Shown here in pieces: positions 7,487 to 42,749 of a stretch of DNA of 64,000 nt. Positions within the stretch are counted from its first letter, which is position 1, and every line of letters starts with the position of its first letter. A program made the translations under genes and the position numbers. The stretch comes from Mytilus galloprovincialis (taxonomy: Eukaryota > Mollusca > Bivalvia > Mytilida > Mytilidae), in contig NC_134838.1 in NCBI RefSeq assembly GCF_965363235.1, positions 17,330,441-17,394,440 on the forward strand, given 5' to 3'. The notes below the pieces were generated by a model, which ran no database searches, was not told the origin of the DNA, and saw only the letters and a list, made by a program, of their open reading frames with translations.

Positions 7487-10208
7487 CTAATCTTTTTGTT
7501 TTAAATATAAGTCTTTGGTAAGATGTGAAATAAAACAAGGCATCTGGGTAATAATGTCACTGTGTGCATAATTTGGCTTATATCCAAGACCAACGTCTTT
7601 ATTAACTCTGGTCAAGACTTTGTAAAAGTCATCTTCTTTCTTCATTTTGAGTAGCTCTTCTGACAAGTAACGGACAAATGGTGACCCTTGCTCGGTGTTC
7701 CGGAAAGATCCATAACCTACAAAAAGAGAGAAAACCATTCTGGTTTAAATATACTTTTTATTGTTAACGAGTATAACTGTTCCTTTTATGGATTTCAATT
7801 AAAAGCCAACACCTACCATACACAGCCTTTTAAAATCAAAATTAAGAGATTCTCGCCTGCTTTAAAATAATGCACGCGTTGACTACACCTACCAGGGGAA
7901 GTAGAATACACGGCTAGGAAATCTGCTTCATTAGGAATACGTATAATCTCTCCGTGTGTCTTGTCATACTCATGATATTCTGCAGCAGCGTCTGCCTGAT
8001 TTGGATCTCTTCTTACCACTGTCTTGTTTACACCAATTCCTAATCCTGTTCCTCTACAGGCCTGTAATTATAATTTGTAGTATATTTTACAACCGAAAAC
8101 AATACATTTTCTCCTATACCGTGTTTAAACCAAATGCTAACCTTTTTAGGATATTTTCTTTGGAAGATGAACTATATCATGAGTAACTTTCTTAATTCGC
8201 ATATTAAATGAATCAAAACGGAGTTTAGATTTCTATTTTTAAAACTAGACGACGAGCTTGTTAAACAATTATGGTCCAATATGAAACCAAAATTTGAAAA
8301 AATGAATCAAGTGGACCTAAATGCAAACTTAGAACGAGCGATTTGTTACACAAAGTGGAATCGTGATCAACGACATTTTCACTTGCTTGCAATTTTTACA
8401 AACAAAACTAATGTTATTAAACTTTAGCGTAAACTTTGTTACTATATTCCTGCAGGAAAATTCTAGAAAAGATTTATCTAACCTGGACAATAAATATTTT
8501 TGGCTTCATTATAAGTTCTGGACAGTTTTCTGCATTGAAGTAATCCATCACATTTTTTATCTTAACAGACTCATCTGTCATAAATACACTATCCTCATTT
8601 CCATGCGTCAACAAAGCTACGATTAGGCAACCTGCGTTTTCCAAACTTTTTTTGTCGTTTTTAACTACAATAAAAAAAAAATTGTTTGAAATGTATGTTA
8701 ATGCAATTTTATGTTCATTTTGTTTATCAGTTTATACAATGTCTTACTTAATTGTTTTTGTACCATAGAATCAACAAGTACACACAAAGTTAAATGAATC
8801 CAGAGTTAGAATACAATAAGGAGTTTTTATGCATTTCATATATTCCTTCCATACAATGGTAAACATTTTCAAAAGTTTTGGAGGAAAAAATTCAAACATA
8901 AACGATGTATGATAAGTTCAGTGATTTCATCACAGCACATTCAATCTACATCTTTTTAAAATCTTACTTTCATTAAATTTGTCCTCCATGTCAACTTTAG
9001 TGGCATCATTTAAAAGATCACTATCAAAACCAAGTTCCTGAAATCTTTGGAATAAGGATGCAGCATCCAAGTCACTTCCTTTACGATCACCTAATTTCAA
9101 ATTGTTATGAAATTCTTTGTTATTGATCACAACTGCTATCCCAGAACTAATAGGATATTTTTCTTGATCCAAATGTGCTTTCGATACAAAACCTTGTCCT
9201 GAGTTGCTATAACAGAAATTAATTTCAAGTAGATAAAAGGTAAAAATCACAAAAATACTGAACTATGTGGAAAATTCTAAACGGAAAATTCCTCAACAAA
9301 TTTCAAACTCAAAATATCAAACACATCAAATGAATGGATAACAACTGTCATATTCCTGACTTGGAACAGGCATTTTCGGTAGTAGAAAATGATGGATGAA
9401 ACCTGGTTATACAGATAGCTAAACCTCTCACGTGCGTGACAGTCAGATCCTTTTATTGACAACGATATGTAAACAAAAATAAGCAGACATAATTAGTAAA
9501 AATGTCACAAATAGGGGTACCACAGTCAACATGGTGTATTAATCTTTGTATCAACAGTCTACAATCTGAATCACTATAAAAACTTACAAATACGTAACAA
9601 ATAAATAAATAAATAGATATCAAAAGAATGGTTCGGTGCTGCTTTTTCTCTCAACTAGATATGTAAACCGGCGTTTTGCATTTTCGCCGATCTGCAATTC
9701 ATTGGCGCGATTGTTTTACAAGGAAATTACAGGTAAATGACAGGTGAGTATTTTTTCCCCTTTATCACCATAGACCTCTTCCGTTAGCCAGTTGTACAAA
9801 TGTTATGAAATGTCAATAAATTGGGAAAGCCATTTACAAATTTCACTTAATTTGTCTTTAAATTCTGTGCTCAGCCCACATGGTCCAACAGACTAGATTT
9901 TCCTCCACAAGATCTGAGTATGATGAAAACGACAACACTCTAATCTGCATCGTGGAAAGCATCCATAATTGCGTTATGCCTTGCTTGTTCAAAGTCAATA
10001 TGCATAATCTCGGCCACAAAGAAAAGCTGATTTTGACAGCAGAGATCGCAAACAAATCCCCACATAATTTCATAGCACTGTTCACCTTTCGCTGGTAAGA
10101 GGGCGTAAAAAAGATAAACGTTAGTTCTTATTTTCAAAGTTGAATGTCTTAAAACTCTTCTTTCACATATGAAAAGTAATAACAACGTACTAATTATAAC
10201 GAGAACAA

Positions 10209-10240
<32 letters not shown>

Positions 10241-10435
10241 ACAACGAAATTTTAGAGCGTATTTGGATTATATCCCTTCAACAAGTATGGAACTATAACA
10301 TTAACTGTAACAGTTATAGTGCAGAACTGTGGGAAATATTTAAGAGCAGTACGTTTACCTTTCTGGTCCATGGATGATGGTTGATGTTGACGTGTCTTCT
10401 GGTTTACCACGTTGGGCATCTAGAACATCTGTCAT
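7487..10435 (-). CDS. Caspase gene A: executioner-type caspase (caspase-3/7-like), apparently active
   Basis: Cysteine-aspartate protease that should cut proteins after Asp in apoptosis, acting in the cytosol as a p20/p10 dimer. Five coding exons: 10359-10435, 8968-9206, 8483-8664, 7893-8061 and 7487-7716, joined at GT-AG sites with intron phases 2, 1, 0, 1. They give 298 residues, close to human caspase-3 and -7. The start is the only ATG in exon 1, and its exon position matches the other copies. The prodomain is about 30 residues (DVLD-A near the start), with no CARD or DED. Visible signatures: pocket Arg in GDRKGSDLDA, catalytic His in LLTHGNED, catalytic Cys in QACRG (Q ends exon 3, ACRG opens exon 4), linker NQAD-A as a likely maturation cut, and YSTSPGYGSFRN with the second pocket Arg. 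The protein ends with SHLTKDLYLKQKD. Intron 1 holds a dispersed repeat just upstream of exon 2. Family assignment is firm; orthology to CASP3 versus CASP7 is not. Confidence 0.93.
9240..9545 (+). repeat. R3 repeat in intron 1 of gene A
   Basis: Full-length copy starting 34 bases from exon 2 of gene A, opposite in sense to the gene. Shares all R3 landmarks, including TCACAAAAATACTGAAC at its start and GGGGTACCACAGTCAAC at its end. Confidence 0.7.
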
Positions 10436-15245: not shown

Positions 15246-18200
15246 CTAGTTGGTCTGTTTCAGATATAAATCTTTTGTAAGGTGTGATACAAAATATGGC
15301 ATCTGTCTCATATCTTTACTCGCCGTATGTCCAGGCTCAAATGTCATCACTTTGCTATTTACTTTTGTTAAAACTTTGTAAATATCATCGTCTTCCTGGA
15401 TGTTATGTAGCTCTTCTATTAAATGACGTAAAAATGGTGATGATGACTCTGTGTTATGAAATGATCTGTCACCTGTTGAAACAAATTTTGGACATGAACA
15501 ATTTGAATGTTATAAATGTATTTCAATTTTCTTCCAAGGACTCTTGTTATGTAAGTAAAGAAAAAAAAATATAATATACTAGTAGTTAGAACTCGGCAAA
15601 CTATCACCTTTTCCGAATTTACTTTGGAGTTCGAAGATAGTTGTTAAAACTTTTATTAGCCCAAGAAGTTTTCCACTTCGCTTAAATTTTACAATCAAAC
15701 CTTTTATTTAAAAATCCTCTACTCAGAATTTGCAGGAAAAATAATAGATAAATTTCTTGCCAAAGAAAATATTAAAAAAGGAATTAAAGAAAATAGAAAC
15801 AGATAACATTATGAATATTTTACTCGCCCCGTTAATAGTATTTTTCACCCAACATCAATTTTCTCTAGATCAATAATTAGAGATAAAATAAAACATCGAT
15901 TTATCCGGCAGAACAGCAAACAAGATTAAAAAAATGAAAATGTTACTCGAATACGAAAAAAAAAATTGGAAATGTTTCAGTTATATAAAAAAACTACAAC
16001 ATAGCACAAATATGTATTAGAAATGTGTTGTACACACCTATTGACGTAGAAAAAACTTCAAGGAAATCGGATTCATTGGGAATACGAACTGTATCTACAG
16101 CATCTGGAATCGTAACCTTGTTTTTAAGTGTGTCCTGAACAGTAATGTGTTCACCTTGTCTTGAGTCGGGTTTTCTAGAGCACTGAAATGATTAATAAAT
16201 AAATCAGTAAGGTCAACATGTTTTTTCTTTCTATAAAAGAAATCCTTGATTGGTCTATAATTTAATATTATTTTATACTTTACGGTAAACGTTACCAATT
16301 GTCTGCACCAAATGCGCATTTCGACGATATTGTCTTTCAGTGATGCACAGGACAAAATTGAAAATCCAAGAATGCTGTTATTATAACCGATTTAAATTGA
16401 AAATATGTTTCGTTTTACTTCGCAATTTTTAAGACAGTCTTGCAGATTTTTTTATGCCTGGTAGGTCTGAAAGTCCTTCTATTCCTATAATATTTTTCAT
16501 CTTTCGTAACGATATGTGCATTTCGAGTTAATTTTTTTCACAATCGTGCATGATATTTATATGCTTTTTTTTAATATCCGTAGTGTCATGCCAGTACCAA
16601 AGTCTAATCGGCTGTTCACATGTTGGACCAACAATCCGTTGGCAGAGTAATTGATTCAGTGGATGTTACTGTAGTATAATATGCTTAAGTTATCGTGAAA
16701 GTGTTATAGTTTTGCTATGGTTTCCTTAAATCAAAATCCTTTGAAAATATTTAAAAACAGCAAAATACACTATCTGTATTTGCAAATTTCGATATCAACA
16801 TAAGTTATCAACTCATGTCAAATCACTTAATTTTTTAAAACAGGATATTTGTTTTTAATACTTATCCCGTTTCACATACGGCACGATAACATTTTTACGT
16901 TGTTTACACCCGTAAAAGAGTCATTTCTTACGCATTCACATTTATAATGTTCATTAGAAGTTTCTTCGGAAGCTTTGCCGATAAGATAATTGAACATGAA
17001 TGTCAAAATATCAGACACTGCAAAACAGTTTCAGGAAGTAACCTTCGTTTTTTGTATGTCTACATTAGCCTTTTACATGTATCTTGAGGAAGCCAGTTAC
17101 AAATGAATTGTTCAAATGCAGTAATAAACTGCAGGACTATAACGAAGTTTTATTCCAAAAGAGCAACAAATAACATTCACATATATTACCTGGAAAATAA
17201 ATATTTTGGGCTTAAGAATTAACTCTGGACAGTTTTCTGCATTGAAACAATTCATTATTGATTTCATCTTTATACTTCTATCTGTCATATACACGCTGTC
17301 CTCATTTCCATGTGTCAACAAAGCTACGATTAGACAGTCTGTTTTCTTTAAATTCTCTTTGTCATTTATAACTACAACAGTATATACAAAAGCCTTTGTT
17401 TATGCAAATTGTATTACCTAAAAATGAACATTCGAAAAAGAAATGACATACAAAATGTTTCTTTTAACGTAAAGCATGTAAATGTGACTTCCTACTTGAA
17501 TCTTGTGATTTAAATCAATGATTTTATCGTTTCAGGCTGGTAATGGGTGTTTAATCATGAAGGGAATATAACAAAATTGAAATAAAGTGGCTTAAGATAA
17601 AGAAACAGTAAATGGGTTATGTCTCAGATTTTGCAAAAATTTTACATACAACCTTTACTCGTTGAACTACAACTGAAAATCGAAAAAAATAATGCATTTA
17701 TCTCTTTTATTACTTGAAATATTACAGATTGATTTCTTTCAATATGGGTGAATATTTGTATAGAAAGCACATAAAATCGGCGACAAAGCTTCTATTTTTT
17801 TTTCTAAAAACCGTCAAATCACTAATTCTACTCCATAGATTTTTCTAAAAAAAATATATATTGTTGATACATAAATTTCCGTTTCAATGATATAAAATAA
17901 TCATCTGGTCACCGACTTCGTTTTTTGTCTACTGATCAATTTATTACAAGCCCAGTAGTCAGCACTTTTTATGCTGACATGAATTATCATTGATATTGTT
18001 ATATTTATAAACTGTTTATAAAATTTTGATTATTTTTTTTTTTTAAATATTTAGGCTTTTCTACCTCAGACATAGATTACCTTAGCTGTATTTGGCAACA
18101 CTTTTAGGAATTTGCTCTTCAACTTCGTACTTTATTTGGCTTTTTTTTTTAAACTTTTTTGGATTCGAGCGTCACTGATGAGTCTTTTGTAGACGAAACG

Positions 18201-20854
18201 CGCGTCTGGCGTATATATACAATTTAGTCCTGGTATCTATGATGAGTTTATTTACAATGTTTGTGGTAAAAAACGTAAAAAAATCAATGTTTTACGGCCT
18301 GTAACGCGATGACGTTGCGATTATTTCGACGTTTTATTAGATTTATTCACAAAGAACACCACTTTGAATAAAGTTTACCGTAAAAACGAAGTCGGAAATC
18401 TATATACCAACAACATATAGTTTTTTAAGAAAAATCTATGGAGTAGAATTAGACCTTTGACGATTTAAGGACAAATTTTAGAAGGTAATTCTCCGCTTTT
18501 ATGTGCTTTCTATACAAATGTTCATCCATTTTGTAGGATTTCAATCAGTAATATTTCAAATAATAAATGAGATAAATGCTGTTTTTTTTCTACTTTCAGT
18601 TGTTAATTCATCCAGAGTTATGTGCAAATTTTTACTGAAATCTGTGACATAGCCCATTTACTGTTCTTTGACCTTAAGGCAATTCACTACGCAGTTTTAA
18701 AAAAACCAAACTTTTCATAACGTTAGTATATATTGAAAAGGGATTAATAAAGGAACCAAAAGAGCGAAAAAAATATGTAGGTCCGTGTGCTTGTTTTCGA
18801 GATATCAGCCATTTAAATTTTGGCGGGAAAATGTTCTCTCTTGATTTTTCATAGCTTTTTTCATTGACATCTTTAAGTTCTCAAAAACTATTAAAATATA
18901 ACAAAGATTTTATATGACTTTCACAGATGGTTAATAAATATACATGTAAAATATTTATAAAAAGAAAAATGGGGGTTATTTGGCAAAATGTTTTAGGGCA
19001 TACAAATGGATAAAATCAGAAGATTCAGAAAATCTTACAGGAATTAAAAAAATGACAAGCGAACATCCTTAAAGCAAATTATTCTGCTTAAAGAGTTCAC
19101 AGTTCCTATGTTTCCCATTGTTATTGGAGAAATATTTTCTGTATTTGTACAAACGTAATAGTATGACTTGTAATAATGACATAACGTTAAGGATAAAAGG
19201 GGCCAAGAGTTTGTCATAACTATTGTGGTTAAACGATCTTACAATCATTAACATAAAAAGGTGTATATATAGCATATGCTGTGTAAAGGGTATCTGAAAT
19301 AATTTTTTTTATAGAATATTATGAACTTAAGTAGTTTAATTCATAAATCGTTAATCTAGATAACTAATTACTTTGTAATACCTATGTAATAGCCTGATTG
19401 GAACATAAGAAAACAATAGTAACAACGTCTTTGAAATTATATTTGTTAGTTTGAAAATCATGCATAATAAACTATTAAACCTAAAAATCATTTGTATCGA
19501 ACTATAAATCTAACAGTTATGCGTATCGAGATTCAAAAAGGTTGATTTCATGAGTATCGAAATATAAAATCCAACAACTATGCCTATCGAGATTCAAAAA
19601 GGTTAAATTTCATGCATATCGAACTATAGAATATATATGCTATATGTAGTGCTTTGATTGAGAAGCTCTGCGAATTATTTTAATAGGTTTAAACACAAAA
19701 CAACAAGAAATTTTTACAACAAGATATACAAATAATTGCAAATTCATTTTTACTTTCTTGTAATTTCTCTACCAAGTCATCCCTATTGGCATCGTTCATC
19801 AGATCACTTTCGAAACCAAGTTCCATGAATCTTTGGAATAGGGATGAAGCATCTACGTCACTTCCAGAACGGTCAGATAAACCTAATCTGGCATCAAATT
19901 CTGTGTTGTTTATCACAACAGCTATTCCTGATTTAATTGGATATCTTTCTTGGTCTAATTGGCTTTGGTATATTGTTCCTTCATTTGTTTTTCTATAGCA
20001 GAAAAATAATTCTTCAAATTTGTGAATAAAAAATAAATAAAAAGGTTAAATACTATACACCAGCAGAAGTGTTTTGAAATGCATTATTTTCTTGTAAGAC
20101 GAAAATATTTTTTATTTTGTAAATTGTTCAATTGAATTTGTTTTAGAAAGTTTTATGATTGTTTTGATAAAGTATTCAATTTGCACAAAATCCTATATCT
20201 GCACGACATTCTGCAGGTAGTACATGATAATGAGAATGATTACTCCAACGTTCGAGCTAAGACACTTTCACCTGATTTTGCGTAAAGCTTAAAAAGTATG
20301 CTATACAAAGTAGAAATATCAAAAATACCGAACTCCGAGTAGATAACAACTGTCATATTTCTGACTTAGTACATGCATTTTTTATGTAGAAAAGGGTGGT
20401 TTATACCGAGCTTACCGCTCATTACTGTGACATTCGCATGTAATTCCATTATATTGACAACGATGTGGGAACAAAGAAAACAGGAAAAATAGATAAAAAT
20501 GTCAAAAATAGGGGTACAGCAGTCAACATTGTGTTATATTCTTAATCTCTATAAAACAAACTAATTTGTCAACAAAGAAAAACCAAAAGGCATTTATGCA
20601 AAGCAAATAAGCAAAAACGAAAGATAAGAATAGAACAAATTACCTTAGCAGAATAACACAATGACAGGACGTATAAACACAGAGATATTACTATGTTTAA
20701 ATTTGTTTCTTAGATTATACGGGAAAAAATCAACATAACTGAGTGAAATAATTGAATGTTATATTTACGGTTCTGTCCCTTTGGTAACTGGCAATTTTGT
20801 TGATGTTTCTTCAATAAGATCAGGTTTAGCATCTAATGTGTCTTGACTTGCCAT
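15246..20854 (-). CDS. Caspase gene B: pseudo-caspase, catalytic Cys replaced by Ser
   Basis: Caspase-fold protein predicted to be catalytically dead. Exons 20769-20854, 19754-19992, 17190-17371, 16038-16182 and 15246-15472 join in frame (phases 2, 1, 0, 1) to 292 residues without internal stops. The prodomain reads DTLDAKPD, very like the DSVDAKPD of human caspase-7. The catalytic His remains (LLTHGNEDSVY) and the first pocket Arg remains (SDRSGSDVDA). The active-site pentapeptide is QCSRK instead of QACRG: Ser (TCT) stands where the catalytic Cys belongs and a Cys now sits one position earlier. The S-W-R-N pocket motif is RSFHN, so Arg has become His. The linker of exon 4 is shorter than in A, D and E and lacks NQAD. 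With every splice site and the frame intact, a maintained non-enzyme is more likely than a decaying gene. Possible role by analogy with cFLIP-type proteins: dimerising with or blocking active caspases (inference). Intron 2 contains a 1.1 kb fold-back element. Confidence 0.88.
17591..18678. mobile_element. Long fold-back element in intron 2 of gene B, with an R1 insertion
   Basis: Arms 17591-17915 and about 18385-18678 are inverted repeats: CTTAAG at both ends, AAACAGTAAATGGG against CCCATTTACTGTT, and TATAGAAAGCACATAAAA against TTTTATGTGCTTTCTATA. The spacer carries an R1 copy (17935-18245). No protein is encoded. Probably a large MITE or foldback transposon later hit by R1. Confidence 0.68.
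17935..18245 (+). repeat. R1 repeat copy inside the fold-back element in intron 2 of gene B
   Basis: Forward copy with CCCAGTAGTCAG at its start, then the TACCTCAG, TGTATTTGGCAA and ACGCGCGTCTGGCG landmarks, ending in TATGATGAGTTTA. It lies in the spacer of the fold-back element 17591-18678, so it probably inserted into it. Confidence 0.7.
19490..19632 (+). repeat. 62-bp tandem repeat in the 3' flank of gene B exon 2
   Basis: About 2.3 units with TATCGAACTATAAA and TATCGAGATTCAAAAAGGTT. It lies in intron 2 of gene B. Confidence 0.65.
20310..20545 (+). repeat. R3 repeat in intron 1 of gene B
   Basis: Copy with ATCAAAAATACCGAACTCCG, ACAACTGTCATATTTCTGAC and GGGGTACAGCAGTCAACAT. Same intron and same orientation as the copies in genes A and E. 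Confidence 0.68.
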
Positions 20855-26699: not shown

Positions 26700-28264
26700 A
26701 ACACATTTTTGGTCTATAAGGTCGTAAGATTGCTGTATCATTGACGTTTAATGTACATCTAAAATGACCGTTTGAGACTTAAATTTATGTACACTGTTTG
26801 GAGTCCACAGTATCAAAGGAAATCGTTTAAAATGCCAAAAGCTTATACCTTTTTCTTGAAAATTTACATATACATGCTGCAGTACATAGTAATAGTTTGT
26901 GTATCTATAGCAGAGCAATGTCAATATATGGATCAAATAAAATTGATGGAAAGTAGAAATCGATGCAGAAACGAAACTATTACAAACAATATCTGGGAGA
27001 GGCTATACGATATAACCATGTTAAAAATGCTAAATGCATCATTTTACTGTTTCTGTACACTAATGTAAAAAACAATACTACACGCCATACTGTGAAATGA
27101 TGAATGATTTGATGAAAGTTGGATTACTTTCAGCTGAAAAACTGCTATATAGAGCTGCCTTTATGCTTAATTTAAAAACATACAGTTTAGTGTACAACGA
27201 CAGAGAAAAAAAAACAATATTTTTTTATTGCCTTGAGTTATGATTTTGGATATGAAAAAAATATACGAACATACATGTTTCTACACATAAATATATTATT
27301 AAACATTTGGTATATTAAAACATTCTTTAATACATATTTTGCAATTTACTTTGGGATATGAAACTTTAGCTTGAATGTAAAAACAATGCTGTGGTCTATT
27401 TGTTTTTAAATCATCATAATAAATAAGTAAATTTTTATAGAAAATTTTAAAGTCGTTGAAAAATATTCTTAGATTTTAATAACAATTGATCAATAAATTT
27501 GTCCTAAAAATCTATTTTTGTTGCCGAACATTTTTTTTTTTATTTCATAAGTTTGGTAGATTTATAATTTAGCTTGTCGAATTGTTTATATACATTCCAC
27601 CTTCAAAGTAACTTTGTAACGTATTGATTTGAAACTAAGTCTATCAATAAATCAAATTATCTTTAATGAATTTCATTGACCATTTTTCTGCACATGTCGT
27701 CTTAAAATAATAATAACCTGCTGACGATCTAAGGGCTCCTTGTCACAAATTTTAAACTATTGAACATCTTTAAAGGATTTTTTATTTTCACCATAATTAT
27801 GTTAAAAACTCGTCAATTATTACAAACCGTGTAATATTAACACTGTAACCTAATCTTATGAAAACTAGTTATGTTGTGTGTACTTGACATTAACAGGAGA
27901 CAAATTAGCTTAACCAACAACTTCTTGTTTGTAAATCATTTTTGTTTTACATGTATTGTTTTCTATAGATAGACAATTGATTGTCATTTCACTATGAAAT
28001 ATAAGTTACAATATTTATTTTACTCATTACAGTAGTATAGCATGTAATGAACTTTTATATAATATCATATATCCTTGATCTAGATAAATTCCTAACGCTT
28101 TGTAACAAAAATACGTGTTCTATCAGTTAGTTCTAATTTTCCCCCCATATAAATTACATTTTTATATATTTTATATTACCTTTGATAACTATTATATATC
28201 AAATCATAGTAAAGACAAATCAGCATTCATTTCTATCTTATTAAAGTTAAAGTCGTTGCTGAAG
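26700..28264. other. No gene recognised 3' of caspase C
   Basis: AT-rich with poly(A/T) tracts. A 98-codon plus-strand frame at 26772-27068 has no recognisable domain and no support beyond its length. Confidence 0.45.
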
Positions 28265-31200
28265 TTAATCATGTGCCATGTTCAGATACAAATCCTTCGT
28301 CAGGTGTGATACAAAACATGACATCTGTCTTATATCTTTAGTCGCTTTATGACTAGGCTCAAATTGCATTACTTGACAATTTACTCTGGTCAAAACACTG
28401 TAGAAATCATCGTCGACACCCATGTTCTTAAGCTCCTCTATTAGATGGTGTAAAAATGGCGATGCTCTCTCTGTCTGATTGAATGATCTTTCACCTGCAA
28501 ATAAAAAATTAAAAATAACATATGTTTTTAAAGATAATAGCTGAAATATGTGACATATAAACCAAAACTGACAACTTGCTAGAAAAGATTATTCAACTTG
28601 CATGAATGTTAATGTAAATTCTACATCTTATCAGGCCATAGAAACATATTATATACTAGTGTTTTTACAATGCAATGCTTTCACATTGACACTTCAGTGT
28701 GTTGATCTGTCAGAAACTTTTTACTGATTTCAAGATCATACAGGCATTGGTCAATCAGTTTAAACTGTTCAACAAAATGAATTTTCCTACTTTGGGGAAT
28801 TGTTTATCTTGCAATTGTTCAACCCGACTATAATGGCCGAATTAATGAAATAATCTCGGGTCGAATCTGCGAATCAACCTATTTGTAAGTGTAAAAGGGG
28901 GTTCTAATCTTATTTCGTTGATGTTTATTTGATAAAAACAGATCCGAAAGAATACATCTACATAAAAAAAAGATTTCAAGATGTTTTGTAAACAGATGCT
29001 AGTATTCATAAAAAAAATTTTTTTATCATCAGCGTTGAGATTACTTTACAACAGGGTCGATGCCACTGCAGATGGAGTATTTCTCCCCGATGATATCAGC
29101 AGCCTAGTAGTCAGAATCACTGTATTGACATGCAATAACTTTGATATGGTAACGTTTATTAATTAATTGTAAACAAAAATTTGAATTTAAGAATTTTCGA
29201 CCACAAGAATAGATAACCTTAGTTGTGTTTGGCAAACTTTATGGGGATTTTTGGTTCTCAATGCTACACAACTTTGTACTTTTCTCTTTGACGATTTGAG
29301 CGCTTCTTATCTTCTTTTGTAGACGAAACGCAAGTCTGATTTACAAAATTGCAATCCTTGTATCAAAGATGAAGTTAATAAAGTAATGAGCAGTTTTTTT
29401 TTACCCATTTGTATTTTTCCTGACAAATGTGATATATATAGATTATAACATGGCATTTTCATATCAGACCCCTTATCAGCCCTAGGTCATGATATCAGCC
29501 CGAGAGCTTACAGGCTCGAGTGATGATTTTGACCATGGGATGAAAAGGGGTATGATATGAAAAATGAAATGTTATGTTCTTTTTATCATATACTTCAACA
29601 AAGACATACAGAAAAAAAAACTAGTTTTATAACTTTGAAAAAACAAAACGTTGAATAATTGTTTTGCATATTCTAATAATATATTTTTCTTATTCCTAAT
29701 ATTTTCTTTTTATCCAACTTGTTTTATGTTTTACACACAAAAATGTACCATTTAGATATATATTTTCCTGAATTTGCCGATTGACGTCGAAATGTCATGC
29801 GATAATGTTACAGCAAAGCATGCGATAATAACCGGAGGCAGTTGATATAAAAAGGAAGCAGTTGATATAAACCGGAAGCAGTTGATAACAAAAGTCATAT
29901 CACACGGCTAAGGCAATTCTTCAAATTTAATGAATAAATATATGTTAAAATGAGTTTTATCATGGGGTACAATTATACCATTGTTTTCTCTAAGTATATG
30001 ATAATCCTATTTTCTTCAATAATGGCTGAATATATGAGTTGCTGTTCAAGTAAGCATCACTTTAATAGACCCCCTTTAGTTAACTGTACGAACTGTTAAA
30101 GAAAAACAAATTGCAGTTTTGCTCTCATTTTAGGGGGAAAATAGATAAAATATCATTGATAAATTGTTACACCGCAAGTAGTGAATAAGAAATATGTAGT
30201 TCAAACCTAATGCTGTAGAATAAACTGCAAGGAAATCTGCCTCATTTGGAATACGAACAACTTCTGCACCTTCGGAAAGAGGAATCTCTTCCTGTTTTAC
30301 TTTCCGATCGCCAATGCCAGCACCAACACTTTGAGATGATTGTCTAGAAGCCTTAAAGGGAATATGTTGAATATATATATATCAGTGATCTTTAATGGTT
30401 TATCCAAAAATAAAATTGAGATGAACACCATAAGTCATATAATTCGTTTGAAATAAGATGCTATAGTTAGTAAATATCAGTGCTTACACAATATTATATG
30501 TATACTCCGTCTGACCTGGCATTTGGTGCTCACTGTTTTATTCCTCCTCATAATAAATGTGCCTGTTCTATGTCAGGAACCTTTAAATGAGTGATTTGTG
30601 TTGGTTGCTGTCTGTCATGGATGTTTTTCTATAAAAATATTGTGTCATAAATCAGGCTATTAGTTGTTTCTTTTGAATTGTTTGATAGTTTTTATGTCGT
30701 GGCCTTTTTAATCATTTGCCTAATTATTGAAAGCCATACGATGACCTATAGTTGCTAAAATCCATGTCGTTAAGCCAATATTGCATATTCATCTCTTTGA
30801 CAGTCAGATCCGATCTCCTTCTATTAAAATTTTCTAAATGACAGGGAATATAACGTCTTGCATACTGATTTGACAAGAAACTTGTCAAAATTATTATCCC
30901 AATGTAGGATGATAAAATTAATTTATCAAGAATATATTTCAATTTGCGGATAAGGAAATCCTTTCTTACCTGAAAAATAAATATTTTGGGCTTCAGAATG
31001 AGTTCCTCACAGTTTTCTGCACTAAAGTAGTTCATGATACTGTCAACTAGAACAGCTTGGTCCTGGGTATAAACACTTTCATCATTACCATGTGTCAACA
31101 TAACTATGATTAGGCAGTCTATCTGCTCTGATTTCGTAGCTAAGTTTCTCTTTACTGTAAAGAAACATAAAATTGTTATGTACAAATGTAAACGATAAAA

Positions 31201-33059
31201 AAAAAATCTGAAAAGTGTGTGCAGGATCTGCTCACCCTTCCGGAGCACCTGATATCACCCCCATTTTTGGTGAGGTTCGTGTTGCTTAGTCTTTAGTTTT
31301 CTGTGTTGTGTCTTCTGTACAATTATGTGTCTCTTTGTTTTTTTATTTTTAGCCGTGGCGTTGTCAGTTTATTTTCGATCCATGACTTTGACTGTCCCTC
31401 TGGTATATTTCGTTCCTCTTTCAAAGAAGAGATTATCTTGATTTATGAAACATATGATACAACTACCATAATTAAAGGAAAAAACGAATGAAAATATGTT
31501 TAAATCTTCGATGAAACAAGAACTTTTAAGTAGTTTGTAATAGAGGCGCTAATGCACACACACCCTTTCTAAAATCATGAAGAACAAGTCATTATTCATT
31601 GTCGCTGGTACTATAGTACTAGAAACACCGGCTGTGTTAAAATAAAAATGGTAGAGTTTACGTAAGCACCGAAAAGGTCCTTCCATATAAGCGTGATGTT
31701 AGGACTGCATTATTCATTAATATTTTATTTTGCGACGTCGCCACATATAACATATACTCTTTCTAAAGTATACTGGTATACAAAGACTTCCAATCCTTTT
31801 ACTGAATTGTCCGTATATAAAGGAGTAGGGGCAATTAAACCCTTATTTAACCCAAATATTACTGCAAATTTGAAAGTTGTCATACATATTCTTAAATTGC
31901 TACAAAATAAACTAAGGTACAAAGTATTCAGAAAATCAAATCAAATTTCACATTGAACAAGTTACTATGACAACAATTTTTAAATCATGATAAAAATGGA
32001 TATTTTTTTTTCTTTCTTATTTTCCTCTTTTTTATGTGGGCACCAACGAAACAACCTTATATTTGGTGAGATTATGTCAAAAACTATAACAAAGCTTCTC
32101 TAAAATTTTATTTGTTTGTTTCTAGTTGCGGACTGTTTTCACAACGGAAATAAGGAGACAATGCATAAATTCTGTATTTATACATTATGACGTAATTTCG
32201 ACGTAAAAAAATAATTTTTTTTCTGTTCTTCATTAATATGTCTTGACCCTATGCAGTTTCAAACATGATGTGCTAACTTGAAATAGTTGTTAAAAATTGC
32301 TAATGATGTGATTTCTTTTTTTTTTTTTTTTAACTTGGATGCATTTAAATGTAAAAATTATTAAGAAACTTATGCTCTATTTCTCAAATGACAGGTTGGT
32401 ATGAAATGAATTATTATTTTTTTAATGTTCATTTTAGTCATATAGTATTTGTTACGACTTTGGTTTTCAAATATATTTTGAGCGTTTCTGACAAAGGTTT
32501 AACTAGAAAAGCGCGTCTGACACAAAGCAATTTATAAGTGTCATTTCTTTCTTTAGTTGTAGATTACATACGTGTACTAAAACTAAGGTTGTCTCTCTAC
32601 AGAAAAACCCATGCTACATACTGATATTGGAATGATATGTTTATTTTGCTATTACAAAATTTGAATGTTACTTAGTATCCAATTGTATACTTTTAAAGCT
32701 ACAGCATATTTGAGCTCATTTACCGAAATATCTTTTAAATATAAAAAGAACAACCAAGTAAAGGACTAGATTTTCCAGTGAATTTTAGATTTTTTCATAT
32801 TCCTCTGAAAAAAATCTTACTTTCACTGAATTTGTTCTCCATATCCTTCTTGGTAGCATCCGTTAGAAGAATAGTTTTAAAACCAAGGTTTTTGAATCTC
32901 TCTTCTAGAGGCTCGGCTTCATTTTCAAGGCTACCAGGACGGTCAGGTAAGCGTAAGCGTCTATCAAATTCTGAGTTATTGATAACTACCGCCAAACCGG
33001 AACGAATAATATATCTTTCTGCGTCCAATACACTTCCAGATATAGAACCTGATGTTGAC
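28265..33059 (-). CDS. Caspase gene C: second pseudo-caspase with Cys-to-Ser active site (exon 1 uncertain)
   Basis: Caspase-fold protein predicted to lack protease activity. Recognised exons: 32821-33059, 30970-31154, 30207-30351 and 28265-28494, joined with the same phases as the other copies. Exon 3 is one codon longer. The His motif is kept (MLTHGNDESVY) and so is the first pocket Arg (PDRPGS), but the D-V-D-A that follows in its neighbours is changed. The pentapeptide is QASRQ: Ser (TCT) replaces the catalytic Cys. The second pocket motif reads RSFNQ, so Arg is lost. The linker (about 48 codons in exon 4, the same length as in B) has no Asp at the NQAD position. The p10 exon resembles B's more than A, D or E (PFLHHLIEEL, FEPSHKA, FVSHLTKDLYL). 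No exon 1 of the usual kind was found. A minimal candidate is 33827-33837 (ATG ACA TCA AG before a GT donor), which fits the phase but is weak. Confidence 0.84.
29045..29370 (+). repeat. R1 repeat copy, diverged
   Basis: Starts with the 5' landmark CAGCAGCCTAGTAGTCAG and continues through decayed versions of the later landmarks. The short frame that runs through its start is a translation of the repeat, not a gene. Confidence 0.55.
29443..29582. repeat. Short fold-back repeat downstream of gene C exon 4
   Basis: ACATGGCATTTTCATATCAG on the left pairs with TATGATATGAAAAATGAAAT on the right. The centre is GAGAGCTTACAGGCTCGAG. MITE-like, about 140 bases, in intron 4 of gene C. Confidence 0.6.
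29836..29892 (+). repeat. 20-bp tandem repeat in intron 4 of gene C
   Basis: About three units of CCGGAAGCAGTTGATATAAA with small changes. Confidence 0.65.
31220..31430 (+). repeat. R2 repeat copy in intron 2 of gene C
   Basis: Contains AGGATCTGCTCACCCTTCCG, GTTCGTGTTGCTTAGTC, GTGGCGTTGTCAGTTTATTT and GACTGTCCCTCTGGTAT, the landmarks of the terminal part of the retroelement at 42750-43500. Confidence 0.7.
32460..32535 (+). repeat. R10 repeat scrap in intron 2 of gene C
   Basis: GAGCGTTTCTGACAAAGGTT and AGAAAAGCGCGTCTGACACA. The same family is at 36290-36400 (GAGCGTTCCTGATGAAGGTA), at 36785-36860 and, diverged, at 58375-58480. Confidence 0.55.
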
Positions 33060-34794
33060 CTACAATGAAAAAAAACCATGTCTGTTTGTTTTATTTTTCG
33101 CATTGGCATTATCAGCTTATCACTTAATATGATGTAAAGAATATTTCGAAAGTTTTGTCATATAACATTGATGTAAGTCCCTTTGTATCTATTTATACAT
33201 AATACATCTGACAATTTTCAATTCTTTTCCCATGTACTAGTATTTGATTTGAATCACAAACTCGTCTGAGAACAGCAGTTTGATCTTTTAAAATGACGAA
33301 GGAGTATTAATATTATAAAGGTTCAAAGACTATTAGTAAGAATCTTCCAAAATTCGACCGAATCTCATATTACCTGGAGTATGGATATATATAAGGAATG
33401 ATATCTACTTCTGTAAGATATATTTTGCACTTCTTGAATTCATCTTTAAAACAAAGTTAAAAGTAAGGTCAATTTTGCTTGCCTTTGCCTAACTCGAACT
33501 TCGTACTTAATTTGGATTCAAGGGTTACTGATGAGTCTTTTGTAGACGAAACTCACGTCTGGCACAATTTTTGATAGTTTTACAATTTACATACATAGTG
33601 CAGCGCTAAACATTTCCGTTGAAAGCGTTTACTATAACATTACACGTTGTTAAATATTTTCTATAGTCAGACAGAGTAATGCGAACATATGAAGATATGT
33701 TATTTGGTGGATCTATGATAATTGTGAATGACATGAAGTGGTTCAGTAATACATTCTTCTGATCATTTTTCTGGGATCACGAAACTCGCAGTAAAGGCAA
33801 CGAGATTCCACAAACTATATATCTACCTTGATGTCATATTTTACTTCTGTTGGACAAACTACAAGTGACACGCAGTCGACAGCTCTCAGAATAGCACAAA
33901 TGAGCTCCTAGATATTGCACAAGCTGTATATAAAAATAAATGATAACAGTTACATGTAGAACAGGTCGCCGATGACAAGTCAATTTAACAACTGCTCGCC
34001 TAATGTCATACTATCAAATAATAATGATAATAAGTTCATGAAAAATGTATAACAGAATCATTAAGCCTTGGATACCATGATTTATTCATTACTCTGTGTT
34101 GGTTTTGTACACGCCATCAGTAATTGCAAGTACTTAGGTCGTGATTTAGTTGCTTTTTATTGGCATGCTAGTTTCGTTACCTTCATGCCGATAAGATGAT
34201 TAAGTCATTTCAATACTTGTTTTAAAGTTGTGTTTATGTTGTGCCGTTACATCATAATCCCATGTTAGGGAAGTGTTGAGTGCCCACAATGTTAAACATG
34301 CAAAATTCTGTATAAGTCTGTTCAAAGTCATGAGCCTGAAATTCAGTAGTTGTAGTTTGTTGTTATATCTTTTAATGTTTTTTTTTCTTCATGAAGCAGG
34401 TTGTTGGTTTTTCGTTAGAATTATTACACACTTTGTCATATTGGGGCCATTTATAGTTGGCTATGCGATAGAAGTTTGCTCCTTGTTGAACACTAGAATT
34501 TTCACCTGTTTTCCTTGAGAAAAAATCTCGCAAATCATCCTTATTTCAAATTTTGAAAGACGATTGTGGAGAGCACTCTATTTGTTAAAAAGAAAATTGA
34601 AGCACTTTCCTTTTAGACAAACTATTATAAATGACCTTTTTATGTAACAACAGGAAAGAACAAAGAAAATGTATTATTTTTTACCATTTTTGACCTACCC
34701 TCATAAGTATTGACAATTTCCTGTTAGATGCACCCTTGCTTACGACATGTCTCCTATGAAATCGAGACAGTGGTCAATGAATTATATGTATTAA

Positions 34795-35240
34795 TCTTGT
34801 GTTACCTTTTTCCGAGAAGTAAAACACAACCAGAAAATGAAAACAGTATACTAAAACTCTAAATCCAGAGACAAGGAAATAAAATATAGACTAAAAATAG
34901 GTTATTTTTATTAACAAAGTTCGAAGTTCAATGTTTGGTAATATATGAATATATTTTGAGTACACTTTATATCTAACAATAAAAAAATGTTAGATTCTTA
35001 ATATTTTACCATAATCTTAGTAATGAAGGACTCGACTGACATGGTCGCTAATGTCCTATCAATTTAGAAATCGATGTTACATTCTGACTTTTAAAACATA
35101 TCCTACACACCCATGATGTCACATTCCCCTTCTTAATATGTTTAAAACACACAAAATGTACATTGAAATTGAGATTATTGATATATTTACCCGAAATTTC
35201 TGTCTTGCTTTTTCCAAGAATCAGATGTGACAGGGAGATG
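34795..35240 (-). promoter_or_regulatory. Upstream blocks of caspase C
   Basis: Minus-strand TTCTCGGAA at 34810-34818, followed at once by AAAG-gtaaca. TTCTTGGAA at 35212-35220 is preceded by GTCACATCTGA and followed by TTTCGG-gtaaat. Spacing between the two is about 400 bases, like the pair at 1712/2081. They mark the 5' side of gene C although its first coding exon is not certain. Confidence 0.45.
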
Positions 35241-35726
35241 AAATAAAACACAAAGTCATCTTATACATTTGTTATACTAAAAATAAACGTAGATAATATG
35301 AAATTTCATAAATATGCCTTCGGTGAAAGTATGTTTCACTCTTTCTACAAGGAAAAATTTTTATTATACGAGACAAAAAATGTTGATATGCTTGGAAATC
35401 ATTTAGATGTTACCTATTTCACTTGACGTTTTTGCTGTCGGCAGGTGTCTGCAGACGATTGTAATAACAGGTAAAACTTGGGGTCAATATAGGAAGACAT
35501 GAGACCTGATCTTGTCAGACTGGCGAAGATTCAAAATTACAAACAAAACAAAACATAACAAAAACAAAACAAAAAGAAGATGTGTTGATAGCGACCGGAA
35601 TTTTCCATTTCGAAGGACCAAATAGGGACCTTCACAGAGTTGATTATGCGGTTCTATAATGTGCAGCAAGCGTGGTAGTCTTCCTACACGAGGCATAGGA
35701 ATTAATACTCAAATTTATACGGAACA

Positions 35727-36268
35727 AGCAGGTCGAAAAATTCAGCGGGTCGACAGGTCAGCAGGTCGTCAAGTCAGCAGGTTAGATGGTCGACAAGTCA
35801 GTTGGTCGATTGTTGGATCCCAGTTATTTATATGACCTGACGACTTTCTACGAAAAAATTGACGGCGGCTTTTAAAAAACCGTATTTAAGTGAGGATGTT
35901 TTTGATCTGCTGAGCTAATGACTAGTTGACCTACTGACTTGCTGTCCTGTCGACCTGCCTACATGTCGACCTGCTGACACAATAATCCAATAATTGAATA
36001 CCAACTATATGTATCTATATGATGACCTGTCTACTTGCTGTCCTGTAGGGTTAGGGTCTAAGATTCTAAGTGTGGATATTTTGTCGATCCCCCGACGTGT
36101 AGATACTTGCTGACTCTATAATGCAATTGTTGGAGACCAATTATTTATATGTTGACCTGTCAAATCGCTGTCTTGCGAACCTGTGGACTTGCTGCCCTAT
36201 ATTGTTAGCATAAGTTTAAGGGTGAAGGTTAGGTTCAGGGTCAGGGTTGTTTGTCGACTCGGAGAACT
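35727..36268. repeat. Degenerate GTCGACCTGCTGAC motif array
   Basis: More than twenty imperfect 8 to 10-mers built from GTCGAC, CAGCAGGTC and CTGCTGACC. They run in one sense up to about 35810 and in the opposite sense from about 35820 onward (for example GTCGACCTGCTGAC near 35970). It ends in a GGGTTAGGG-rich part (36040-36250). It resembles the 54987-56106 element in design, but matched ends were not found. Confidence 0.55.
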
Positions 36269-36289
36269 GCATATATTAAAATATAGCTC

Positions 36290-36410
36290 TTCAACGATTT
36301 TCGGTACTTATACATCTTCGGATTTCAAATGTTTGGCTTTGAGCGTTCCTGATGAAGGTAAATCCAGAAAAGCGCTTCGGACGCAATAAATTATTAAACG
36401 TGTTGTTTTA
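36290..36410 (+). repeat. R10 repeat copy
   Basis: TTTGGCTTTGAGCGTTCCTG, GATGAAGGTAAATCCAGAAA and AGCGCTTCGGACGCAATAAA. The best kept copy of the family in the window. Confidence 0.6.
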
Positions 36411-36904
36411 TATTTTTATAATTTTAACAAGATTTGCCTCATCGACCATATTGAATCAAAGCTTTGAACGAACAATGACGAACTATCTGTCTTGCATAAA
36501 TCAGATCTCATAATTCCTGGTTCTTATTTATGCAATACAAGCCTATAAAAGGCAATCGCGCGTCAGATCAATCCCACACTTGTCTGATTTGAAAGATATT
36601 CCAATACTCTTACGCATAGATGTAGGAGCACAAGGTATGGTCAGTCTTCACTGAGGCAGATACCAAACACACATCAGCACATGTGTATAAAACAGTAAAC
36701 ACCAGTTGATTTAAAATGAATTTCCTCATTTTGTTAAGTCACTTTTTAATTATACAGTTCTTAAGTGTTAGGTTGTTAGACTTTTTTTTAGCTTTGAATT
36801 TGTTTGGGTATGAGCGTCCCAGAAAAAGGTAAATCCAGAAAATATCATCGGTTACAAAACAGTCATAAAGTGTTATTTGTTTGCAGCATATGGTTTTGCA
36901 ATAT

Positions 36905-37015
36905 AATAAAATTAAGAATGGAAATGGAGGATGTGTCAATGAAAACAACCCGACCATAGAGCAAACAACAACCGAAGGCCACCAATGGGTCTTCAAGTCA
37001 AAGTCGAAAGCGTAC
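36905..37015 (+). repeat. Mussel-type repeat family R5b, partial
   Basis: AATGGAAATGGAGGATGTGT, ACAACCCGACCATAGAGCAA and CCGAAGGCCACCAATGGGTC. Reverse copies of the same family are at 39440-39560, 22420-22500 and 23630-23765 (the TTGTTGTCTCTTTGRCACAT mark). Confidence 0.65.
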
Positions 37016-37249
37016 ACAAAACCTGCATGCATACATATAAATTCTTAATTTTTCAAGAAATGATATGTTTTAATATTAGTTTTGAACTTCCCGAAAAAGT
37101 GGTCTCGCAATAGTCTGTGAATTTGAAAACCAAACCAGAAAGGAAAAGTTTAGTTTAACGGTTCGTCAGTTTCTTTTGAGATATGAAACGAGTTAGTGAC
37201 ATTAATGATTTTGTATGTAGCATATGCATTTAAGATTGTAAAGATCTTG

Positions 37250-37475
37250 ACTTCCCTTGAAGGCCTAGCACAGTCGGTCGGGCTATCTATATGAAGGAAC
37301 TAAGGGTCCGTAAATCGAACAGTTTACGAAGAATTTCAACATTTAATAAACATGAATCGAAAATTCTTATACTGCCTGTTGTGATTTTTTGACTGAGTGT
37401 GGTTGCTCAAAGCGAGTGGTATAATGAGAGGCTTACCATATTGTCGCATCAAGTCTCGCTCTTTTTTTTAGTCTT
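37250..37475 (+). mobile_element. SINE with tRNA-like A box
   Basis: TAGCACAGTCGG (37266-37277) matches the A-box consensus. A weak B box surrounds AAATCGAAC (37312-37320). A body with GAGTGTGGTTGCTCAAAGCG and CGCATCAAGTCTCGCTC follows, ending in a T run. The 3' limit is uncertain. Confidence 0.5.
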
Positions 37476-39187: not shown

Positions 39188-42100
39188 TTATTGTTTTAAA
39201 ACCAACTTTTTTGTAAGATGTGAAATAAAACAAGGCATCTGAGTAACGTTACTCCTTGGAATGTTGGGTTGATATCCGATTCCAACTTTTCTATTTGCTC
39301 TGGTCAAGATTTTATAGAAATCTTCACCTTTATTCATGTGACGTAGTTCTTCTGTCAGGTGGTTTACAAATGGAGTTCCTTTATCTGTGCTTCTGTAAGA
39401 CCCGTAACCTGTTTGAAAATAATTTTCGTTTTACATGTTATAAACAAGTGCGGGAATTTCTCGCTATATTGAAGACCTGTTGGTGACCTTCTGTTGTTGT
39501 TTTTTCTATGGTCGGGTTGTTGTCTCTTTGACACATTCCCCATTTCCTTTCTCAATTTTAAGTATATGACAATAAATCATATTAAGTTGTGTGTGTTGGT
39601 TTTTTCGTTTTCTCTGTAAAGAGAAAGTTTTAAGAAGAATGCAACATGGCTTCACAATAGTTTCAAATTCATTGACTTTTAAATTTAGTACTCTGATATC
39701 AATATCACAATAATAAATATCTGTCTCTTTTTATACTTTGATTTCATTATTAACACATTTCGATGTACGATTATTATCAGTTTCTTGACAGGTACTTAAA
39801 AACACTAGTGTAATCACTAAATCTAGCTTTATTTTGTAAAATGTATAACAAATTTGACTCAACGATAGCCAATGAATTACAGGTTACTGACTTGGGACTA
39901 GCTCAGCAAGATTTTATATATGAGCCAGTTTATGCGAAAAGGTACAAAAAGTCCTTTTGGTAAACTTTATAGGACACGTTATCAAAGTTTGTTATAGTAT
40001 TTTTGAAAAACGATTTTATCCGAAAAAAATTTACATTAATGTAAACATTTATAAGATTGTCAATTCTATCCCGAATTTGTCAACTAAAACAGAAAAAGAC
40101 GTAGAAATATCTGAATTTTTGGTATTTGAGCAAGTGTAAAATCATTTGTTCCCCTGACTAATGCTATACCGACCAGAAACTACAGAGACAAAAGTCAATA
40201 ATTTCCGTCACTTCTACAGGTTTCAAGAAAGTAAGACAACATTAAAACATGAGGGAAAATACAAAAACTATGACATCTTGTGTTTGAGAAATTGAAATTA
40301 AGTTAAGTCATTTAATATTATATAAATCAACCTTAGTTGCACGGGATTCGAACCGTTGCCCGGTTTGATTGCATTGATAACCGCATCGTAATCGAGAGCT
40401 TTATCCCCATTGCTACCGGGGTTAACATTATCAATTGGCAAATCAAGCTATTTAAACTGTACTTTGAAAATGATTGAAATATATGAAATAATTCACAAAA
40501 AATCTTGATAAAACTAAAAGGGGGGGGGGGGGTCTCAACACTTGCAGGTGCGTGTAGCTCCCAGCTTGATGATATGAGGAAAAGTAAATGTGTTTTATAA
40601 ATCACAAGTCTACTACCAATAATTTTGCACACTTTTTAGAATTTCGTAAATTTTTCGTTTTTGTACCTTTTCGCATGGACTGGCTCATATGATTTAGCTT
40701 TAGCAATACTAATATACAATATGAAACTGCCATCATAATTATATAACACGCACCAGGGGAAGTAGAGTACACTGCCAAGAAATCTGCTTCATTAGGTATA
40801 CGCATTGGTACTCCATACGATTTGTTATAATCATAATATTCAGCTTCGCCATCAGCCTGGTTTGGATCTCGTACTACTGTCACGTTAACACCACGCCCAA
40901 TGCCTTGTCCTCTACATGCCTGTAATCAAAATAACACAATACATTGGTAATACTAAGTAAACAATGAACATATTATTTCACTATTAAGCTTTCAATTAAA
41001 ATGGTTCTGTCCAGCACTCTTTTTACTGATGTGCATAAATTCATACCGTTAATCTTATTTAATTGATGCTTGGCAAACCTGAAAATTAAACAGGATCATG
41101 TTAAATGAAACCACTATTTATTTTAAACATTTTCGAGGGCACCAACTATCATATACTTGGAGCTTGTAAAATAATATTATCCTTTAAAACAAAAACCCAT
41201 TATATCAAGAAACACTTGTGTGTACCTCATATGGAGTACAATATATATAAAAAGATTCTAATCTTCAATTATCTCACCTGAAAAATGAAAATCTTTGGCT
41301 TCAAAATAAGTTCTGGACAGTTTTCTGCATTGAAAAAAGACATCACATGTTTTATCTTGACATATCTATCTGTCATACACACAGTGTCCTCATCCCCATG
41401 TGTCAGTATAGCTACAATCAGACAGCCAGTTTTCTCTAACTGATCGCTGTCGTTTTTAACTACAAACATAAATATACATATTAGCTAAGCCTTTACACAA
41501 ATTCTATTTTGCTACCAAGTTAAGAATTCAAACACTTGAAAGGACCTGTTTTAGATATTGATCTGATATTGACATAACTAGAATAAGGACTTTTGCCAGA
41601 CTTCCTTTATTTCGAAAATCAAAATTTCATAGAGGACATTTTTTCTAAAGGAGGTTGAAACCCGCCAAATAATTAAGCAAACTGTATTACTTTTAAAATA
41701 CTTTCACACTTTGCTTGCATAAATAAGTAATAAATTACGATGCTTTATTTTTCTTTTTAAAAGGCAACACCACGAAATGAATTACATAAATTGAAACAAT
41801 TTTTTGAAACCAGAACATTCATGATTAATACAATTTTAGTCATACTATCTTTAAATTTCTCTTCCATGTCATCGTAAGTGGCATCAGTTAATAGGTCAGT
41901 TTCGAAACCAAGTTCCTGGAAACTTTGGAACAAGGACGAAGCATCAACATTACTTCCCATTCGATCAGGTAAATTCAAATCACTTTCGAACGTTTCGTTG
42001 TCGATTATTACTGCCGTAACAGAACTAATTGCATAGTTAGCTTGCTTCAGATGACCTTTTGCTATGTTAGCTGACCCAGAGTTGCTATAAAAGGAAATTC

Positions 42101-42585
42101 ACTTCAAGTAAAAATATTAATTTTATTTTAATGGAATGGTATATCTCTTGTGTGTTTAGTGTTTCCTTTAAATGGTAAATTCTTAACCTTAAGATTATTT
42201 TCTTAAATAATGTCTCTGACAAGCATATGAAAGCGTTCGATTTTTTCCCCCGAAAATAAAGTAAAAACAACTAAGTCAATCGTTTTTTGCAAGTTTAATT
42301 CTTTTTTACAAGTGGCAAGTGTTTTTTTTTTTTAGAATAAACTGTCATTTCCAGGGTGTGTTTAAGTGCACATATTAATCATGTTAATAAACGTTCAAAA
42401 TACGATTTATTCAATGAAATTTTGATGAAATTGTAGTTGATTTAAAATGAGAGAGTTTATGTACACAATTGAAAAATGTTTATTCGTCATTGTATGTACC
42501 TTTCGATTTCATGAGTAATGGGAACTGATTTTGTATTTTCTTCTCCTTTATAATGACTAGCATCCACTTCGTCTTGATTAGCCAT
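39188..42585 (-). CDS. Caspase gene D: executioner-type caspase with N-terminal DEVD-A site
   Basis: Predicted active executioner caspase. Exons 42500-42585, 41846-42084, 41278-41459, 40754-40919 and 39188-39408 give 297 residues with intron phases 2, 1, 0, 1. Residues 5-9 read DEVDA, the exact effector-caspase recognition sequence, so removal of the short prodomain by itself or by a neighbour is likely. Signatures: NLPDRMGSNVDASSL (first pocket Arg), catalytic His in AILTHGDEDTV, catalytic Cys in QACRGQGIGRG, linker NQAD-G, and YSTSPGYGSYRST with the second pocket Arg. The S1-side residue after Arg is Ser where human caspases often have Asn. The p10 end is SHLTKKLVLKQ, slightly shorter than in A and E. 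This is the most compact copy: intron 1 is only about 415 bases. Intron 4 carries a mussel-type dispersed repeat, a SINE-like head and a 13-G run. Family assignment is firm. Confidence 0.92.
39440..39560 (-). repeat. R5b repeat, reverse copy in intron 4 of gene D
   Basis: GCGGGAATTTCTCGCTATAT, TCGGGTTGTTGTCTCTTTGA and CACATTCCCCATTTCC match the reverse complement of the family at 36905. Confidence 0.65.
40335..40430 (-). repeat. tRNA-like remnant in intron 4 of gene D
   Basis: Perfect B box GGTTCGAATCC at 40344-40354 (minus strand), with a tRNA-sized region upstream of it, but the acceptor and T stems do not pair well and the A box is poor. Probably a SINE head or tRNA pseudogene. Confidence 0.45.
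40520..40532 (+). repeat. 13-G homopolymer in intron 4 of gene D
   Basis: Uninterrupted G run in otherwise AT-rich DNA. Confidence 0.8.
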
Positions 42586-42749
42586 TTCTATAAAGATAAG
42601 AAATACTTAAATGATGTAGCAGGATTAGACTAAAACTGGCATAGTTTTACATCAGTCTCGTCACAGACCTTTATTTAGTACTATAATTTCCAACCTAAAG
42701 TTGGTGTAATCTAAATGGTTATAAAGACCTATACGTTTCCACTTTTATC

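Follow-up and report, generated by a model that had tools for sequence, protein, structure and literature searches.

Serine in Place of the Catalytic Cysteine in a Probably Maintained, Noncatalytic Caspase Lineage of a Mytilus galloprovincialis Tandem Array

Introduction

cFLIP(L), encoded by CFLAR, is a pseudo-caspase found near live paralogues, and its inactivating changes are conserved, as described in the accessible portions of PMC7586951 and PMC11121540. In Aedes, the effector-type caspase-like paralogue CASPS18, which has no catalytic domain of its own, is considered a decoy that enhances the live caspase CASPS19, according to the available text of PMC4840389. The Caenorhabditis elegans proteins CSP-2 and CSP-3 are caspase homologues whose active sites are altered or absent; the part of PMC3591282 consulted here records that inhibition of apoptosis had been reported for them by others and that the csp-3 effect could not be replicated.

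Bivalves have dozens of caspases, many of them carrying changes at the active site that may mark either junk or regulators. Caspases that have lost the catalytic Cys, the catalytic His, or both have been described from Crassostrea gigas, from Mytilus coruscus (Mc-caspase-3/6/7), and from M. galloprovincialis (caspase-2), and these altered proteins, which belong to expanded and partly tandem sets, have already been suggested to be noncatalytic (PMC7836458, PMC10967218, and PMC3037946, in the sections available). For M. coruscus, eight Mc-caspase-3/6/7 genes with a deleted or mutated His or Cys were counted, and such variation was termed ubiquitous in bivalve caspases (accessible portion of PMC10967218). 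Because losses of this sort are on record for all three species, at least in those portions of the papers, a noncatalytic bivalve caspase is a known kind of protein. In the open-licence literature, as far as its accessible text goes and supplements aside, we found no selection test, no Ser-type lineage, and no exon mosaicism for such genes, and the motif strings QASRQ, QASRG, QCSRG, QCSRK, and QASRX did not occur in the open-licence papers searched.

Here we describe a caspase array of M. galloprovincialis in which live copies stand beside copies with Ser at the catalytic position. The genome searched was an assembly of 1.385 Gb in 331 contigs. The window, by which we mean the whole stretch of 64,000 nucleotides that was analyzed, is positions 17330441-17394440 of contig 1, and coordinates given below without a contig are those of the window.

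Results and Discussion

A tandem array of live and Ser-type caspase genes

The array comprises eight caspase genes over 96 kb, five of the Cys type and three of the Ser type (C, D, and G), all on the minus strand and lying, from the high end, in the order H, A, B, C, D, E, followed by F and G. It exceeds the window at both sides, with H beyond the high end and F and G beyond the low end. Nine genes were modeled, these eight and gene K, which is carried by an unplaced contig of 25.3 kb (C268). Exons 2 to 5 have identical phases in all nine, and the splice sites of these exons and the stop codons are intact in each of the four Ser genes. The catalytic motif is QACRG in the Cys genes H, A, B, E, and F. 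Within the window, the live-type genes are the five-exon genes A (49519..60037, minus strand; p10 motif SFRN) and B (39188..42585, minus strand; SYRS) and gene E (7487..10435, minus strand; SFRN), of which exons 2 to 5 are firm. Candidate short first exons in splice phase were found for seven genes (A, B, D, E, F, G, and H). Those of A and B are alike (E value, 0.004), those of D and H fit more loosely, and those of E, F, and G are weakly supported; the candidate prodomain exon encodes 28 amino acids in D and 25 in the weakly supported case of G. The candidate first exons of gene A (59943-60037) and gene B (42500-42585) contain DEVDA, likely a caspase cleavage site in the prodomain. Between caspase genes, similar peptide stretches of the form NFPFL...NIPAAPAY...QLIRYSRA occur at 22109-22321 on the minus strand and at 42699-43148 on the plus strand; both are probably retrotransposon remnants.

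Gene C reads Ser where Cys is expected

Gene C has its p20 start in exon 2 (32821..33059, minus strand), which keeps a pocket Arg in PDRPGS, and its catalytic His (LTHG) in exon 3 (30970..31154, minus strand), which ends FIFQ. Exon 4 (30207..30351, minus strand) carries QASRQ, with Ser for the catalytic Cys, and a shortened linker without DPNQAD; exon 5 (28265..28494, minus strand) encodes p10, in which the second pocket Arg is lost (SFNQ) and the C-terminal strand SCFVSHLTKDLYL is kept, and ends in a stop codon. Exon 3 finishes with TTTATTTTTCAG, followed across the boundary by GTAAGA, and exon 4 has the acceptor TAAG, the opening codons GCT TCT AGA CAA, and the donor GTTTGA, so that the spliced reading is FIFQ/ASRQ. 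Spliced in phase, exons 2 to 5 give an uninterrupted frame of 265 codons that closes with a stop codon, and all of the introns are GT-AG. An earlier note on this DNA had proposed a Cys-to-Ser change (QASRQ) at 30207-30351, and our gene model bears this out, the span being exactly exon 4 of gene C. Another acceptor or frame that would restore Cys in exon 4 was considered and rejected, as none of the opening codons encodes Cys and exons 3 and 5 leave no freedom of phase.

The product of exons 2 to 5 of gene C matches the Pfam family PF00656 (Peptidase_C14) at 2.4e-43 over profile positions 2 to 233 of 233, spanning p20 and p10. The corresponding match of gene D is 1.3e-45, and among solved caspases the best match is caspase-6 (1.4e-28). 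Peptidase_C14 was the sole domain found by Pfam scan in gene D and in exons 2 to 5 of gene C, and the scan found no DED in either. The strength of the Pfam match of gene C and the presence of Ser in four of the nine modeled genes, one of them on another contig, put the Ser reading beyond chance. The earlier note had also called the Ser copies full-frame, which holds for exons 2 to 5 of gene C; a first exon and start codon of C and K were not found by profile search, by comparison of candidate peptides between C and K, or in lists of ATG-to-donor stretches. Within the window, no first exon or start of gene C was recognized at 33065-39187.

Three further genes share the Ser

The Ser of gene C had been thought to be shared with one neighboring copy. 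The sharing stands and the number does not, since at least four genes (C, D, G, and K) have Ser instead of the catalytic Cys of QACxG. Gene D, on the minus strand, has a candidate exon 1 at 20769..20854 (short prodomain, MASQDTLDA...), exon 2 at 19754..19992, exon 3 at 17190..17371 with the His kept, exon 4 at 16038..16182 with QCSRK, in which Ser is at the catalytic position and a Cys lies one place earlier, and exon 5 at 15246..15472, in which the pocket Arg is lost (SFHN). The motif of gene G, outside the window, is QCSRG, and that of gene K is QASRQ. Gene G encodes its Ser with TCA, and the other three Ser genes use TCT. In D and G, Cys replaces the Ala directly before the lost catalytic Cys (QCSR). 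Cys is most likely the ancestral residue at the catalytic position, because a more distant relative on contig 1, some 0.6 Mb away, has SCRG there.

We find it scarcely credible that a single-codon artefact, of the assembly or of an allele, explains these readings. They come from one assembly, and K, whose flank is a 94% match to that of C, may belong to the C locus as a divergent haplotype, but Ser is present in three array genes as well as in K, its codon has undergone a synonymous change (TCT and TCA), and it is accompanied by linked losses.

Losses are focused on the active site

Judged by aligned residues, loss in the Ser genes is centered on the active site. We counted 113 columns of exons 2 to 5 that are invariant among the five Cys genes, 96 outside the active loops and 17 inside. 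Gene C keeps 73 of the 96 and 5 of the 17; the corresponding figures are 72 and 5 for K, 80 and 5 for D, and 81 and 4 for G. The p10 of the five Cys genes starts with GY(G/K)(S/G)(F/Y)R, and the Arg, whose position was set by alignment to the solved caspase-6, is replaced by N, Q, H, or D in all four Ser genes. The P1-Asp pocket, which consists of two Arg and a Gln, is thereby incomplete in each of them, with the p20 Arg (DRxGS) and the Gln kept and the p10 Arg lost; a substrate-binding role of the pocket residues is described in the accessible portions of PMC3037946 and PMC10967218. The linker motif DPN[QK][AP]D is present in 5/5 Cys genes and 0/4 Ser genes, and the latter have a linker deletion in common. 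The catalytic His (THG or SHG) is kept in all four Ser genes, and the Gly that ends the catalytic motif is gone in three.

These patterns bear on whether the Ser genes might encode proteases with altered chemistry, with the nucleophile supplied by Ser itself or, for D and G, by the preceding Cys. We give this very little credence. The His and the S1 Gln, kept 4/4, and the QCSR of D and G would suit such an enzyme, but every copy lacks the pocket Arg and the linker motif, three of the four lack the motif-ending Gly, and the motif of C and K is without any Cys. Exchanging Cys for Ser is, in addition, a usual way of killing a caspase in the laboratory.

One Ser clade, probably with mosaic genes

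C, D, G, and K fall into a single clade, supported at 100/100 by nucleotides and 99.9/100 by protein, and the support is still 99.8/100 when the motif, linker, and pocket columns are dropped. The signal differs by part: the Ser genes group at 99.9/100 with exon 4 alone and at 100/100 with exon 5 alone, whereas neither exon 2 alone nor exon 3 alone groups them, and support for the clade is 100/100 from exons 4-5 and weak (67.9/45) from exons 2-3. When the clade was split by placing D and G with one Cys gene, exons 4-5 rejected all five such placements (AU P of at most 5e-5) and exons 2-3 rejected one of the five. For exons 4-5, these results reject a separate gain of Ser in C and in D. A single history of the whole gene is also unlikely, as the part-wise trees and the synonymous distances disagree between the halves; a mosaic is likely, not proven.

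At fourfold sites, D and G differ from the Cys genes by 0.40 in exons 2-3, the same value as among the Cys genes themselves (0.40), and by 0.56 in exons 4-5, where the Cys genes differ from each other by 0.35. Between C,K and D,G the difference falls from 0.51 in exons 2-3 to 0.34 in exons 4-5. Bootstrapping of codon mismatches (codon columns, shared amino acids) gave P values of 0.014 and 0.026, the 95% interval of the second including zero. These comparisons suggest that D and G are likely mosaics, in which the p20 half resembles the live copies and the exon 4-5 module is the dead one. The features of that cassette are the Ser loop, a linker without the usual cleavage motif, and a p10 without its pocket. 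A more elaborate scheme, which we put forward as a doubtful possibility, would have modular decoys: the dead exon 4-5 cassette would have been recombined or converted onto different p20 halves, with D and G as chimeras in which a p20 of the live type is joined to a dead p10 fitted to the live neighbors, and C/K as an older, separately evolving dead type, present as two divergent haplotypes or paralogues.

Gene K is tied to the gene C locus by two blocks, each of which gave two matches in the genome search. The block upstream of gene C (34684..35350, minus strand) matches here and upstream of K, the two being 66% identical; it is a possible promoter or 5' exon region, and no conserved reading frame was seen in it by eye. 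The flank downstream of gene C (26907..27686, minus strand) has its two matches at this place and at the end of C268, which are 94% identical. The identity of C and K jumps from 77% around the gene end (27884-28515) to that 94% in the downstream flank, which may reflect a divergent haplotype, conversion, or duplication. The introns of the two align in small part, and their pairwise coding dS is 0.19; on these comparisons, K may be either a paralogue or a haplotype of C that has diverged greatly. A repeat unit of 1746 bases recurs upstream of K (C268, 1 to about 14500) and forms the 5' part of K; a unit-length query found copies that are 95-96% identical on contig 5 (2259 first-look candidates, of which 1 was scored).

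Coding constraint in the Ser lineage

Selection was assessed with a codon model written for this analysis and applied to 255 gap-free codons of the nine genes, with the gapped linker columns left out; if the genes are mosaics, such single-tree tests are approximate. Omega was 0.271 overall and 0.307 in the Ser clade versus 0.242 in the rest, a difference that is not significant (2dlnL, 2.52), and omega = 1 was rejected for the Ser clade (LRT, 108.8). In a five-class model, omega was 0.235 for the Ser stem, 0.327 for the C/K stem, 0.365 for the C and K tips, and 0.303 for D/G, each of these Ser-lineage classes being below 1 with an LRT of 14.2 to 44.9 (17.2 for the C/K stem and 14.2 for the C and K tips). 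Within the Ser clade, omega = 1 was rejected in exons 2-3 and in exons 4-5 separately. In exons 4-5, omega was higher within the Ser clade (0.424) than in the rest (0.238), with omega = 1 rejected at a P value of 9.5e-6, and on the C and K tips it was 0.535, with omega = 1 not rejected (P = 0.15). Exons 2-3 yield a very short Ser stem, for which omega = 1 was not rejected (P = 0.57). Pairwise omega between C and K was 0.41 overall and 0.75 in exon 4, and the C/K stem is long, at 0.66 changes per site. When the coding sequence of gene C was evolved neutrally in simulation, 7 of 400 runs were free of stops at a dS of 0.2 and 0 of 400 at a dS of 0.8. Overall, the Ser genes combine noncatalytic residues with a coding sequence under purifying selection, with a caveat for exons 4-5 in C and K alone.

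We regard it as improbable that the Ser genes are decaying pseudogenes that are still open by luck. Decay could be read into the first exons of C and K that were not found, the raised exon 4-5 omega of their tips, and the length of the C/K stem. Against it stand the rejection of omega = 1 for the Ser clade as a whole, for the C/K stem, and for the C and K tips, the complete absence of stop-free neutral runs at the higher dS, and the intact splice sites and stop codons of exons 2 to 5 in all four genes. The suggestion in the earlier note that a pseudo-caspase lineage is maintained here gains support from the single Ser clade and the rejection of neutral evolution, and the dN/dS near 1 that it had named as the contrary outcome is not seen over the whole gene, although in exons 4-5 between C and K omega is 0.54, with a P value of 0.15. 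As far as sequence can tell, then, the Ser lineage is very probably a maintained noncatalytic caspase.

Loss of the catalytic Cys elsewhere in the genome

A Pfam search of the genome gave at least 143 matches, counted exon by exon, among which 48 further stretches, picked because they extend to the catalytic loop or close to it, were read by eye. The catalytic position is Cys in 43 of these, neither Cys nor Ser in 2, and unreadable in 3, and among the stretches read Ser at this position is confined to the array lineage. On contig 2, at 87605750-87618400, caspase-like exons read Phe (VDAF) and Ala (IDTA), and these exons near 87.6 Mb are perhaps a second, independent group of Cys-less caspases. 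A distant relative on contig 12 (32379702-32379926, minus strand) has a p10 exon without the pocket Arg (AFTN), and in its relative near 17.97 Mb of contig 1 the Arg is kept (AFRN).

A possible mode of action

The Ser copies probably act as regulators, not enzymes, a reading that follows from the loss of the cutting residue in copies that selection has nevertheless kept intact. The proteins would fold as caspases, as suggested by the caspase-domain match and the retained C-terminal strand of p10, and cutting would be impossible with the nucleophile, the P1-Asp-binding Arg of p10, and the DPNQAD linker motif all gone. Pairing with the live paralogues (A, B, E, F, and H), or with the enzymes that process them, could then damp or boost caspase activity; the assumption that heterodimers form draws on the conserved C-terminal strand of p10. 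The dead exon 4-5 module would be joined to two types of p20 in this scheme, one in C/K and a live-like one in D/G. We put the chance that the Ser proteins act through live paralogues at about even. Restraint of the active copies, as first envisaged, is not the sole option, because the effector-type analogue CASPS18 is described as enhancing its partner (PMC4840389, in the text available).

A decoy might also do its work without pairing with live caspases, as a sponge for IAPs, adaptors, or substrates or as a caspase-independent scaffold, which we consider unlikely. Stripped of the linker motif and the pocket Arg, the protein would be left as a zymogen-like fold that offers surface contacts only, in keeping with a sponge, and expanded IAP families have been reported for bivalves (accessible portions of PMC7831173 and PMC8917759). 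On the other side, an uncut linker would expose no new N-terminus of p10.

Conclusions

Among these readings we lean toward one in which gene C belongs to a set of at least four protease-dead, executioner-type paralogues that would have arisen in or with the array, are held by purifying selection, and would act through their live paralogues. A dead lineage among live copies in one array, with a selection test passed and linked losses, makes the junk-versus-regulator question directly testable.

Compared with cFLIP, which in the accessible accounts has two DEDs, groups with caspase-8/10, and carries Tyr and Arg in place of Cys and His, the genes of the array are executioner-like and keep the His, so that the likeness is one of logic, dead beside live, and not of architecture. 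The motif of C. elegans CSP-2 is VCCRG. With CASPS18, as far as the available text describes it, the array shares an effector-type dead paralogue beside a live one; the mosquito system has one decoy and one partner, whereas here four dead copies with a common exon 4-5 module stand beside five live ones. If the Ser copies do modulate the live ones, bivalves would have evolved a caspase decoy family of their own, separate from cFLIP and from the mosquito decoy.
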